In this document: positions 4,644 through 48,553 of the stretch, piece by piece
Layout: the number at the start of each line of letters is the position of its first letter
Numbering within the stretch: the first letter of the stretch is position 1
Source of the DNA: Candidatus Zipacnadum vermilionense
Lineage (GTDB): Bacteria; Armatimonadota; Zipacnadia; Zipacnadales; Zipacnadaceae
Assembly: GCA_029821755.1 (NCBI GenBank)
Contig: JALGSV010000003.1
Location: 62,001 to 126,000, forward strand
Direction of reading: 5' to 3'
DNA: 64,000 bases
Notes under the pieces: model-generated
Database searches by the model: none
What the model was told of the DNA's origin: nothing
What the model saw: the letters and a program-made list of their open reading frames with translations, nothing else
Made by a program: the position numbers and the translations under genes

Positions 4644-6932
4644 ATGACCACGATGATTACATCCCCCCACACCCTCTGGTACCGCCAGCCCGCCACCTCC
4701 TGGCTTCACGCCCTGCCCATCGGCAACGGTCGCCTGGGCGCGATGGTATTCGGCGGCCTGCCGACGGAGCGCCTCCAACTGAACCTAGACACGCTCTGGA
4801 CCGGGGGCCTTGAGGACAGCAACAACCCGGATGCGCTGGAGTACCTGCCCCAGGTACGCGAACTGCTCGCCGCCGGCCGCTACGCGGAGGCGGAGGCTCT
4901 GGCTGCCCCCCACCTCATCGGCGAGCCGCGCGGCATCCGCCCCTACCAATCCCTGGGCGACCTGTGGCTGGACTGGGAGGTCTCCGGCGTCCCCCAGGAC
5001 TACCGCCGCGAGCTGGATATGGAGACGGGGATAGCCGGACTCAGCGGCACCCCCGAGGGAGCGGCCTTCCACCGGGAGGTGTTCTCCTCGGCACCGGACC
5101 AGGTCCTCGTCGTCCACTGGACCAGCGACCGGCCCCTCACCGGGGCTATTCGCCTAACGCGTGAACAGGAAGCCCAGATCACGGTGCTGGCCGACGACCG
5201 ACTGGCCCTGCGCGGGCGCTGCGACGCGGGCGAGGGGATCGGCTTTGCCGCGCACCTGTGGGCGCTGCCGGAGGGCGGCAGCCTCAGGCGGTCGCCCAAC
5301 GGACTCCAGATAACCGAAGTGTCGGCGTTGACGCTTCTGCTAGCCGCAGCCACTACCTTTGAGACGCCCGACCCGGACGCGGCCTGCGAGGAATGGCTCC
5401 GCCGCGCCGGACAGAAACCATACACCGACTTACGCGAGGCGGCGGTCACCGACCACCGGCGCTACTTCCACCGGGTCTCGCTGGACTTGGGCCGGACTGC
5501 GCAGGACGACCTGCCCACCGACGAACGTCTGGACGCCGTGCGAGCGGGCGCCCTGGACCCGGGGCTGGTGGCGCAGTACTTCCAGTTTGGCCGCTACGCG
5601 CTGATCGCCTGCTCCCGGCCCGACACTCAGCCGGCCAACCTGCAGGGCCTCTGGTGCGAGGAGATGCGTCCGGCCTGGAACTGCAACTACACCGTCAACA
5701 TCAACGTGGAGATGAACTACTGGCCCGCTGAGGTGACCAATCTGGCCGACTGTGCCGAGCCGCTTTTCTCCTGGATCGACCGCCTGCGGGGGCCGGGACG
5801 GGAGACCGCCCGGAAGCATTATGGCTGCGGCGGTTTCACCCTCCACCACGTCTCCAACCTGTGGGGCCACGTCACCCCCGCCGATGGGCTATGGGGAATT
5901 TGGCCAATGGGCGCCGCCTGGGTCTGCCGGCATCTCTGGGAGCACTACCTGTACAGTGGCAACCGGCAATTCCTGCGGCACACGACCTACCCTATCATGA
6001 AGGAAGCAGCCCAGTTCCTCCTTGATTTCCTAGTGGAGGACGAGCACGGCCGGCTGGTCACCAACCCCTCCACCTCTCCGGAAAACTCCTTCTTCGGCCC
6101 GGATGGTCAGCCCCACCACCTCTGCGTAGCGGCCACCATGGACCTGCAGATAATCCACGACCTGTTCAGCGCCTGCATGGAGGCTGCGACTACCTTGGAG
6201 ATCGAGGGGGACTTCTGGGGGGTGCTCGACTCGGCGCGCCAGCGCCTCGCTCCGCTGCAGATCGGCAAGCACGGCCAACTGCAGGAGTGGCTGGAGGACT
6301 TCGACGAGCCCGAAATCGGCCACCGCCACCTGTCCCACCTCTATGGCCTCTACCCCGGTGACCAGATCACCCTGCGCGGCACGCCCGAACTAGCGCAGGC
6401 GCTGCGGGCCAGTTTGGAGCGCCGCCTGGCACACGGTGGCGGCGGCACCGGCTGGAGCCGCGCCTGGGTTGCCGCCCTGTGGGCGCGCCTGGAGGAAGCC
6501 AACCTGGCCCACGACAGCCTCTACATCCTCCTGCGCGAGTCCACCGAGTACAACCTCTTCGACCTACACCCTCCACACATCTTCCAGATTGACGGCAATT
6601 TCGGCGCCACCGCATCGATCGCCGAGATGCTTCTGCAAAGCCACGCCGGTGAACTAAGCCTCCTCCCCGCCCTGCCCGAGGCCTGGCCGGAGGGAAGGGT
6701 AGCGGGTCTGCGCGCACGCGGAGGGTATGAGGTGGATCTCACCTGGAGCGCCGGGCGTCTACAAGAGGGAATCATTCGGGCCGCCCACGCCGGCCTCTGC
6801 CAGGTCCGCACCGCGGGAGCCACGCAGCTCCAGGTGAACGGCGGAACCGTGGAGGCTACAGGGGAGGAGGAGTCGGTGATCGTCTTCCCCGTAGACGCGG
6901 GAAGTGAATGCCGGCTACACCGCGTCGGCTGA
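4644..6932 (+). CDS. GH95 family glycoside hydrolase (alpha-L-fucosidase or alpha-L-galactosidase type)
   Basis: A 762-residue protein of family GH95. The N-terminal beta domain opens with [28 protein letters not shown], characteristic of the family. The (alpha/alpha)6 catalytic part carries [10 protein letters not shown] (about 351-361, whose Asn residues activate water in the known mechanism). It also has NPSTSPEN (about 474-481, candidate acid Glu), [28 protein letters not shown] (about 603) and [18 protein letters not shown] (about 650). GH95 enzymes are inverting 1,2-alpha-L-fucosidases or alpha-L-galactosidases; the specificity is not decidable here. No signal peptide is visible, so a cytoplasmic place is likely. 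The start is the ATG at 4644 after CTGGAGA. The frame is open much further upstream, but that part overlaps the GH4 gene and is a shadow. Confidence 0.92.
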
Positions 6933-6954: not shown

Positions 6955-8892
6955 ATGAGACAATTGGCTCTGACCCGAAGCCAACTCCTGCTCGCCCTAC
7001 TGGTCTGCTGGGCGCTGCCCAGCGGCGTGGGGTGCGCGCCCGACCAAGACTCGGCCGCCGGCTTCACCGATCACGGCATCGCCGCTCCCTTCAGCATCAG
7101 CCGGGGCACGGTAGCCACCACGGACGGTGCCGGCCGGGACGTGGTCCTGGTGTGGCTCAGCGACCACCGCGGTGGCTATGCCCTCCTAATGGTCGACGCT
7201 GAGACGGGCCGCGGCGAGCAGTTCCCCATGCCCTTTGATCAGCGCGGCGACACCATCTACTTCTCCCTGCTCTCGAGCCGCAACCGCCTCTACACCCTCT
7301 TCGGAGACCATTTCGTCGAGTTCGACCCCACCCAACGAGCCTTCACCTTCCAGAGCCCCGTCCGCCCGCACAGCGCCATGAGTATGACCGAGGACGACCA
7401 TGGCGATATCTGGGCAGCCACCTTCCCGACGGCGGGCCTGGTGCGCTTCAACCCCGAGACCCGGAAGCTCACGGACTTCGGGAGCGTGCGGCAAGAAGAC
7501 TGGACCCAGTACCCCCGGCGGATAGCCACCGACGACCTGGGCTGGGTCTACGTGGGCACCGGCTACGCGGCCAGCCAGATCACTGCCTTCAACCCGGCGA
7601 CCCGCGAGGCCGGGCCACTGCTGGGGGAGGTCGAGCGCGCACAGGGCCTCCCGGCGCTTTACCCAGGCGTCGACGGGAAGGTCTACGGCGCGCCCCTCGC
7701 GACCAGCAATGACCGCTGGTACGAGTTCTACCGCGGACAAGCGAAGCTGCTCGGCGCGAGCCCAGGGGTCAAGCGGAAGCCCATCGTTGCCGGCGCCCAG
7801 CAGTTGCTCCACACCCGATTCCCCACCGGCAGGACTCTCCAGAGTCTCGATCTGACCGAGCGCAGCCTAGTCACCGTGGCTCCCCAGGCCACCGATACCA
7901 CTAGGGTATCCTTCGACTACCAGACCGAGGGCGCCGCTATCCTGGCTGTCGCGGCCTCCCCGCAGGGCGCCCTGTGCGGCGGGACCATGTTCCCCTTCCG
8001 CTTCTTCAACTATGACTCGGCGAAGAACCGATGGACGAATCGCGAGTGTCTGGGCCAATGGAACACTTTGGCCCGACAGGGAGACCACCTCTTCGTGGGG
8101 GCGTACGGACAGGGGATGCTCTTGGAGTGGGCGCCCGAGCGCGAGTGGACGCCCACGAAAGCCGGCGATCCCACCTCCAACCCCCTCCTCGTCACCACCT
8201 CCACTCCCACCGTCTACCGCCCGCGCGCGCTCCTGGCCTGTCCCGACGACCGCACCCTGGTGATGGGTGGCTCTCCACCACGGGGCCGCACCGGAGCCGG
8301 GCTGCTCCTGTGGGATCGGGAGACACAGACGCCAACCTTGCTCCCCGACACCGCGGTGGGCCCCGATCAGTCCACCATGAGTCTGGTGGCGCTGGGCGAG
8401 GGCAAGGTGCTCGGCGGCACCACTACTGCCCCCGCTGGTGGCGGGGTGAGGAAGGCGCGGGAGGCGGAACTCTATCTTCTGGATCTGGCTACGCGGAAGG
8501 TCCAGTGGCACGCCGCCGTCCTCCCCGGTGTGCAGGCCTACAGCGACCTGTGCTCGGGCGCTCACGGCCTGGTCTACGGGCTTGCCGACCGGAACCGCTT
8601 CTTCGTTCTCGATCCCGTGCAGCGGCAAGTGGTCTACGAGCAGTCCACCGGGGCGAGTTTCGGTCATGCCCCCTACCAGCAAGGCCCGCGCTACTTCGTG
8701 CGCGGGCCCGGGGAGACGGTCTACGTGTTGTTCGAGAGAGCCATCGCTCAGGTGGATGCCGTCGACCATCACCTGCACCTGCTAACCAAGGCTCCGGTCC
8801 CGATCGGCCCGGGCGGGGACTACCTGGAGGGACGCATCTACTTCGCCAGTGGCTCGCACCTGTACAGCTACACCCTACCGGCGCAGCCGTGA
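6955..8892 (+). CDS. Exported beta-propeller protein, function unknown
   Basis: A 645-residue protein with an N-terminal signal sequence (RSQLLLALLVCWALPSGVGC). Its Cys near residue 22 could be a lipidation site, although the lipobox is poor. The remainder is repeats of beta-propeller blades, such as GDIWAATFPTAGLVRFNPETRK and LGWVYVGTGYAASQITAFNPATR. Each has a G-x-W/Y-x-x-T core and an NPxT or DPxQ turn, as in regulator-propeller or Vgb-like domains. It follows the GH95 gene by 22 bp after GAGGG (6945-6949), so it is probably co-transcribed with the two glycosidases. I can see no catalytic signature. Binding of a carbohydrate or scaffold at the envelope is a reasonable guess only. Confidence 0.75.
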   Translation: MRQLALTRSQLLLALLVCWALPSGVGCAPDQDSAAGFTDHGIAAPFSISRGTVATTDGAGRDVVLVWLSDHRGGYALLMVDAETGRGEQFPMPFDQRGDTIYFSLLSSRNRLYTLFGDHFVEFDPTQRAFTFQSPVRPHSAMSMTEDDHGDIWAATFPTAGLVRFNPETRKLTDFGSVRQEDWTQYPRRIATDDLGWVYVGTGYAASQITAFNPATREAGPLLGEVERAQGLPALYPGVDGKVYGAPLATSNDRWYEFYRGQAKLLGASPGVKRKPIVAGAQQLLHTRFPTGRTLQSLDLTERSLVTVAPQATDTTRVSFDYQTEGAAILAVAASPQGALCGGTMFPFRFFNYDSAKNRWTNRECLGQWNTLARQGDHLFVGAYGQGMLLEWAPEREWTPTKAGDPTSNPLLVTTSTPTVYRPRALLACPDDRTLVMGGSPPRGRTGAGLLLWDRETQTPTLLPDTAVGPDQSTMSLVALGEGKVLGGTTTAPAGGGVRKAREAELYLLDLATRKVQWHAAVLPGVQAYSDLCSGAHGLVYGLADRNRFFVLDPVQRQVVYEQSTGASFGHAPYQQGPRYFVRGPGETVYVLFERAIAQVDAVDHHLHLLTKAPVPIGPGGDYLEGRIYFASGSHLYSYTLPAQP

Positions 8893-47544: not shown

Positions 47545-47587
47545 CCTACGCGAGAGTCCACCCCACCACGCAAGGCAGGCGATAATC

Positions 47588-48553
47588 GTGTGCAGAGCCG
47601 TCTCCGCCGCGCTCCTTTTCTTTGCCGCCTCCCTGGCCCTGGCGGCCCCGCCGGCCTCAGCCCCTGCTGCTTCTGGCTCGCCCCAGCGGGTCACGGTGGG
47701 CATCTACCTGCTAGACGTGCGGGACTTCGATCCCCATCACTGTTCATACAATGTTGACTTCTATGTCTGGTTCCGCTGGACCGGCCCCATTGACCCCAGC
47801 CGATTTGAGCTGCTCAACGGCCACCTGACCTCCCGCGACCACGCCGACTATAGGCACGTCGACGGCGTCAACTACGTTTCCTACCGCTGCCGAGGCGAGG
47901 TGCACAACCCCTTCGACTTCTCTCGCTACCCCCTGGACGAACACAACCTGACGCTGGGAATAGAGGACGCCGACCACGACGCCTCCCAGTTGGTCTATGA
48001 GCCCGACCTGGCGCAGACAGCCCACGACGCTACCCTCACCCTCCCCGGTTGGCGGGTCGGCAAGCTCCGCTCGGGAGTGCTGACCATCACCTACCCCACC
48101 GACTTCGGCAACCCCGCTCGTCCGATCGGCCAGAAGGCCACCTACTCCCGCTACGTCGTCACTGTCCCCATCTCCCACCGCGGCACCGAGGCCTACGCCA
48201 AGACGTTCCTGCCCTTGTTCATCTCCGTCGCCATCGCCTTCCTAACCTTCCTCATCCACCCCGCCAACCAAGACTCGCGCTTCGTTCTGGGTGTCGCTGC
48301 TATCTTCGGCGCTATCTCCTCCCAGATAATCGTCTCCGCCGCCCTCCCGGAGACCGCCTACATGACCCTCGCCGACCGCATCCACTTCATCGCCCTGGCC
48401 TTCATCTTCTTCGCACTGCTCGAGTCCTGTGTCTCCTTGATGCTCCACCGCCGGGAGAAGCACCGGGCCCTGGCCTTGATCGACGCCGTCTCGCTCGTGG
48501 TCTTCCCCGCCGCCTTCATCGTGATCGTCGCCCTGCTCACGATTGCCGGGTGA
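47588..48553 (+). CDS. Prokaryotic pentameric ligand-gated ion channel (pLGIC, GLIC-like)
   Basis: A 321-residue channel subunit. A signal peptide (AVSAALLFFAASLALA) is followed by an extracellular beta-sandwich: VTVGIYLLDVRDFDPHHCSYNVDFYVWFRWTG (35-66). The loop NPFDFSRYPLDEHNLTLGIED (107-127) is the prokaryotic equivalent of the Cys loop, without the disulfide. Four helices follow: M1 about 207-223, M2 about 231-252 (pore), M3 about 260-286 and M4 about 296-321. LPETAYMTLADRIHFIALAFIF closely parallels the M2-M3 stretch of GLIC (LPKTPYMT...). Its length equals the GLIC type. It should form a ligand- or proton-gated channel in the inner membrane. The GTG start follows from the promoter. It is monocistronic. 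Confidence 0.88.
   Translation: MCRAVSAALLFFAASLALAAPPASAPAASGSPQRVTVGIYLLDVRDFDPHHCSYNVDFYVWFRWTGPIDPSRFELLNGHLTSRDHADYRHVDGVNYVSYRCRGEVHNPFDFSRYPLDEHNLTLGIEDADHDASQLVYEPDLAQTAHDATLTLPGWRVGKLRSGVLTITYPTDFGNPARPIGQKATYSRYVVTVPISHRGTEAYAKTFLPLFISVAIAFLTFLIHPANQDSRFVLGVAAIFGAISSQIIVSAALPETAYMTLADRIHFIALAFIFFALLESCVSLMLHRREKHRALALIDAVSLVVFPAAFIVIVALLTIAG

Follow-up and report, generated by a model that had tools for sequence, protein, structure and literature searches.

A pentameric ligand-gated ion channel homologue of the short-ectodomain bacterial type in Candidatus Zipacnadum vermilionense

Introduction

Prokaryotic pentameric ligand-gated ion channels (pLGICs) serve as structural models for neurotransmitter receptors, and few of them have been studied; to our knowledge, almost no physiological ligand of these channels is known. 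The protein analyzed in this work, encoded within a 64,000-nt stretch of the Candidatus Zipacnadum vermilionense genome (referred to as the window), is a bacterial relative of the channels through which nerve cells receive neurotransmitters.

The described systems with which it can be compared are GLIC, the proton-gated channel of Gloeobacter, ELIC of Dickeya/Erwinia, for which the positions and roles of the agonist-site residues are available (PMC3119659), the animal GlyR and GABA-A receptors, and the bacterial ART-LGICs, for which Tasneem et al. 2005 reported that the hWxP motif is present only in some forms (PMC549065).

The Gene and Its Surroundings

The pLGIC gene (47588..48553, forward strand) is an intact open reading frame, running from the GTG codon at 47588 to the TGA codon ending at 48553 and encoding 321 aa, as supported by ORF analysis, homology searches, AlphaFold2, and Foldseek; all features given below lie on the same strand. 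A Shine-Dalgarno-like AGGCAGG sequence (47573..47579) is localized 8 nt upstream of the GTG codon, the GC content by codon position (62/45/86 %) follows the same pattern as in the neighbouring genes, and the homologues align in frame with this ORF.

The upstream neighbour is a divergently oriented gene of a Gfo/Idh/MocA oxidoreductase, and the downstream one is a convergent gene of a GH1 glycosidase; the pLGIC gene must therefore be transcribed alone. The promoter of its own with which the gene had been credited in the first-pass annotation was not recovered, since a consensus scan revealed no sigma-70-like promoter, and the terminator scan at the gene found nothing either. The oxidoreductase and GH1 genes are not kept around the pLGIC gene of a congener (locus L041), and clustering of the neighbours, noisy as all ORFs were used, showed nothing clearly common to distant lineages among the matches listed. 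The genome contains a single pLGIC copy, and it is therefore expected that the protein assembles as a homopentamer.

Membership in the Pro-Loop Superfamily

Several comparisons establish that ORF 47588-48553 encodes a member of the Pro-loop (pLGIC) superfamily. In a phmmer search of the PDB, the protein matched ELIC/GLIC chimeras best (E = 4.5e-15) and GLIC with 6e-13. A family profile of 320 positions, constructed from 33 members (the window protein and 32 relatives), matched ELIC (2vl0, 2.4e-34) and GLIC (3eam, 1.5e-33) along profile positions ~21-317, i.e., over the full length, and its lowest E-value against the PDB sequences was 1.7e-37, the top scores belonging to chimeras with GABA-A/GlyR membrane domains. 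These phmmer and profile values exclude chance. The NCBIfam models LGIC_1 (4.5e-12) and LIC (7.3e-12) were also matched, both under their curated cut-offs. A full-length Pfam match, which the first-pass annotation had expected, was not obtained: Neur_chan_memb reached E 0.026 and 15.2 bits against a cut-off of 28.1, which is a detection threshold and not a biological feature, and Neur_chan_LBD did not match the window protein. Most of the scanned relatives are also placed under the Pfam Neur_chan cut-offs (L002 passes for LBD), and Pfam by itself would miss the window pLGIC. A Phage_holin_2 match in Pfam (E 0.0098) was rejected as a match to hydrophobic segments.

AlphaFold2, run as a monomer (pLDDT 92, pTM 0.82), predicted a beta-sandwich followed by four helices, and Foldseek ranked GLIC first (TM 0.75-0.78, E 1e-22, probability 1.00), which is partly due to the many GLIC entries. 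The signal-peptide-like N-terminus (residues 1-20; 47588..47647), recognized from the sequence and modelled as a low-pLDDT helix at residues 4-17, precedes the extracellular beta-sandwich (residues 33-197; 47684..48178), delimited by profile alignment and AlphaFold2. The latter also provided the borders of M1 (residues 201-222; 48188..48253), M2, the pore helix (residues 228-252; 48269..48343; supported by the alignment as well), M3 (residues 261-288; 48368..48451), and M4 (residues 292-320; 48461..48547).

Four of the five superfamily signature sites defined by Jaiteh et al. (PMC4795631) are kept, namely the Pro loop YPLD (residues 114-117; 47927..47938), the beta9 aromatic W155 (within GW 154-155, aligned with GW160 of GLIC), P209 of M1, and P254 of the M2-M3 loop, whereas the fifth, the pre-M1 Arg, is replaced by H197. 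Within the superfamily, the Pro-loop Pro is conserved in 100% as part of [F/Y]PxD (PMC4795631), and both P115 and D117 were found in all 33 aligned members. As in GLIC, there is no Cys-loop disulfide, because none of the cysteines of the window protein (C2, C52, C101, and C281) flanks the Pro loop in the usual way. Structure prediction, Foldseek, the PDB profile search, and NCBIfam all place the protein in the pLGIC superfamily, as proposed in the first-pass annotation, which had also noted a signal peptide, a beta-sandwich and four helices in the right order, and a missing Cys-loop disulfide. We consider it very probable that the protein functions within this family as a pentameric channel gated by a ligand, an estimate that leaves aside its ligand and selectivity.

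A Clade with a Shortened Ectodomain

The window protein groups with homologues whose ectodomain is shortened between strands beta2 and beta4. The distance from the beta2 Trp to the beta4 Asn equals 13-19 residues in this clade (with one exception of 44), compared with 30-41 in ELIC, GLIC, and the other pLGICs of the host phylum. In the window protein, the W64-N77 segment (47777..47818) spans 13 residues, lacks beta3/hWxP and holds E74 (equivalent of ELIC E77), while ELIC, with 22% ectodomain identity, keeps beta3/hWxP and has 37 residues. Overall, the beta3/hWxP segment of the clade is shorter by about 15-20 residues, and the hWxP part before strand 4 is deleted in the window protein and all but one of the 33 members, the exception (L035:6025-7134) carrying a long insertion. 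Loop C (Y169 to Y186, i.e., ELIC Y174 and F187; 48092..48145) is conserved in the clade and longer than in GLIC (by 10 residues) and ELIC; its span is 14-18 residues in the clade (one exception, 6) versus 6-13 in ELIC, GLIC, and the in-phylum pLGICs. A further hallmark of the clade is the beta2 motif DFYVWFRW (residues 57-64; 47756..47779), where F58, W61, and F62 are invariant in the 33 aligned members and Y59 occupies the loop D position.

It should be stressed that forms without hWxP were already reported by Tasneem et al. 2005 (PMC549065), and such a group is therefore not new. The window pLGIC, which shares with these ART-LGICs the lack of hWxP before strand 4 and the short M3-M4 loop, probably belongs with them. 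In the phylogenetic tree, which has long outgroup branches, was midpoint-rooted, and is based on sequences sampled for their similarity to the window, the 33 members were separated from GLIC, ELIC, and the in-phylum canonical pLGICs with 100/99 support, and the window protein and that of its congener formed a sister pair inside a 15-row group. The PDB profile search revealed no solved structure from this clade, the best matches being of ELIC/GLIC type (1e-37), whereas the clade members reached 1e-78 to 1e-121 against the same profile, which their own sequences had helped to build. The family is already known in bacteria, and what is new is a member that combines the clade-level short ectodomain with a pocket resembling that of ELIC and with a coupling-site substitution specific to the genus.

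The Agonist Pocket

The ELIC agonist site (PMC3119659) maps to Y40, Y59, W61, E74, L76, S98, E126, A128, Y169, and Y186 of the window protein. Four of these ten positions are identical (ELIC Y38, E77, E131, and Y174), a share that by itself does not clearly exceed the 22% identity of the ectodomain as a whole, and an aromatic residue is found at the place of F187. Conservation within the clade is high: E126 (47963..47965), aligned with the amine-binding E131 of ELIC, and W61 are invariant in the 33 aligned members, and Y59, Y169, Y186, and E74 are conserved in 85-97%, the mean entropy of the pocket in the family alignment being 1.16 versus 2.10 for random ectodomain positions (p 0.0017). In GLIC, the equivalents of E74, E126, A128, and Y186 are R, I, R, and E. 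As the pocket is ELIC-like and not GLIC-like, protons are a less likely agonist than a small amine-like molecule. A primary amine of the kind recognized by ELIC appears to be the most likely class, to which we would tentatively give slightly less than an even chance; a point against it is A128, which replaces F133 of ELIC in loop B and leaves the aromatic cage incomplete.

Proton gating as in GLIC, in which the pore would open upon protonation at the domain interface, perhaps that of H197 beside D117, has to be weighed against this reading. The M2-M3 loop is nearly that of GLIC, H197 is titratable and placed at the coupling site, and GLIC was first in Foldseek. However, that rank reflects in part the abundance of GLIC entries, the GLIC pocket residues are not shared while the ELIC-type E74 and E126 are conserved throughout the clade, and His at position 197 is limited to the window's genus, which makes such a mechanism unlikely. 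The emphasis placed on GLIC in the first-pass annotation holds for the M2-M3 loop, but the pocket is nearer to ELIC, the M1-M2 length is that of animal anion channels, and the protein falls into the separate short-ectodomain clade.

The Pre-M1 Coupling Site

H197 (48176..48178) occupies the place of the pre-M1 Arg (R199 in ELIC and R192 in GLIC). An Arg is present there in 30 of the 33 aligned members, and His only in the window protein and its congener (L041). The distance from H197 to P209 in M1 is 12 residues, the same as in GLIC and ELIC, and H197 is therefore a genuine replacement rather than a shift of the alignment register.

If this His broke the gating, the product would be a non-conducting or uncoupled receptor, i.e., a binding protein or a silent remnant. 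The pre-M1 Arg is conserved in about 94% of the superfamily, although not absolutely (PMC4795631), its replacement by Ala silenced ELIC and blocked the expression of GLIC (PMC4778918), and the window's genus is the sole carrier in its class, all of which would fit such a loss. Nevertheless, the ORF is open, the codon composition is normal, the pore is conserved, the gene has been retained in the congener (42% identity), and an adjoining Arg (R198 in the window protein, the R196-equivalent in L041) could take over; this explanation is thus very unlikely. On the preferred reading, that of a functional receptor, R198 may compensate for H197. It could also be imagined that the clade represents an amine-sensing pLGIC type of distinct structure (short ectodomain and long loop C) and that, in the window's genus, a titratable His stands in for the nearly universal coupling of the pre-M1 Arg to the Pro-loop Asp, so that the coupling of binding to gating depends on pH, which seems to us quite unlikely.

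The significance of the locus lies in the fact that the clade extends over many phyla and has a conserved pocket in a smaller ectodomain, and the window's genus departs from a residue considered necessary for gating; the protein would offer a compact means to find out which elements of the coupling machinery can be dispensed with.

The Pore and Ion Selectivity

The pore-lining positions of M2 are D229 (-2'), R231 (0'), V233 (2'), A237 (6'), F240 (9'), S244 (13'), and I247 (16'); ELIC has E at -1' and GLIC Ile at 9'. The near-parallel of the M2-M3 stretch with GLIC, pointed out in the first-pass annotation, was confirmed, as LPETAYMT and LPKTPYMT are identical in 6 of 8 residues (LPxTxYMT). An acidic ring at -2' is likewise shared with GLIC, and D or E occupies this position in 26 of the 33 aligned members. 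Because of the ring formed by D229, cation preference is somewhat the more probable outcome.

A ligand-gated but anion-selective channel with a GlyR/GABA-A-like pore, competing with the preferred explanation on selectivity only, is the less probable alternative, though not a remote one. It would be consistent with the M1-M2 spacing (9 residues up to R0'), which is that of the GlyR chimera and is shared with the animal receptors, with the best PDB scores, obtained for chimeras with GABA-A/GlyR membrane domains, and with R231 at 0'. However, R or K is found at 0' in 79% of the superfamily (PMC4795631), therefore R231 alone is no marker of anion channels, and most of the family has D or E at -2', where animal anion channels have Pro. 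Unlike the GlyR/GABA-A receptors, the window protein has no Cys loop, no Pro at -2', and a short M3-M4 loop. The evidence on selectivity is divided, the D229 acid speaking for cations and the M1-M2 spacing and chimera scores for anions.

In the preferred explanation, the product is a subunit of a Pro-loop receptor from the short-ectodomain bacterial clade, and five identical copies of it would assemble in the inner membrane, their beta-sandwiches lying in the periplasm. An agonist that is small and probably cationic would bind between subunits against E74, E126, Y40, Y59, W61, Y169, and Y186, under loop C, and the signal would pass from the Pro loop YPLD through pre-M1 H197/R198 to P254 of the M2-M3 loop. 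The M2 gate would then open around F240 (9') and I247 (16'), and ions, with cations favoured, would flow through the open pore, which could have a sensory function based on membrane potential or on the entry of ions.

Two charged residues of the membrane domain are near-invariant in the clade: K205 of M1 (48200-48202; 31 of 33) and, where M3 begins, D263 (48374-48376; 32 of 33). In GLIC, the roughly corresponding positions hold N or I and G. K205 and D263 may form a salt bridge close to the outer pore.

Distribution of the Homologues and Their Genomic Arrangements

A scan of species genomes revealed relatives at 39 loci, in Azospirillum, Myxococcota, Hyphomicrobiaceae, Planctomycetota, Verrucomicrobiota, Actinomycetota, Cyanobacteriota, Bacteroidota, and one archaeal MAG. 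In the window's class, 2 of 46 genomes encode a pLGIC, i.e., the window's own and that of the congener (42% identity), and in the phylum any match was found in 5 of 291 genomes, the other three carrying canonical pLGICs of another type. The sparse occurrence anticipated in the first-pass annotation is thus confirmed and, within the class, limited to the window's genus. The canonical genes (L044, L045, L046, and L047; one genome has two copies) are of the hWxP type, and in L046 the Pro-loop motif is FPFT, without the Asp. Among plasmids, seven near-full-length matches were found on Azospirillum megaplasmids, together with two partial and weaker ones (Azospirillum and Streptomyces). No viral or phage relatives of the window pLGIC were found.

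L024 (526-2661) and L031 harbour near-identical genes that encode a 717-aa protein and immediately precede a pLGIC gene of the short-ectodomain type. Its interpretation as a concatenated pLGIC dimer was rejected, since it consists of a Cache domain (MCP-like_PDC_1, dCache_1) and a highly divergent pLGIC-like module, the C-terminal part alone giving no PDB match with phmmer; Cache fusions are already known (PMC549065). The L022 contig, labelled as a Klebsiella pneumoniae MAG, groups with Myxococcota proteins and is probably mislabelled or contaminated.

Tandem arrangements were also observed. In the archaeal MAG (L035:6025-7134 and 7282-8169), the first gene has the insertion, of about 30 residues, after the beta2 Trp, and loop C of the second is very short. 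In three myxobacterial/delta genomes, two different pLGIC paralogues lie next to each other on the same strand (L016:4958-5929 and 5932-6885; L017:4940-5968 and 5911-6906; L021:111-1106 and 1202-2161), the upstream partners forming one clade and the downstream partners being placed elsewhere in the tree. Bacterial pLGICs are generally taken as homomers (PMC549065); these pairs suggest that their products might form heteropentamers.
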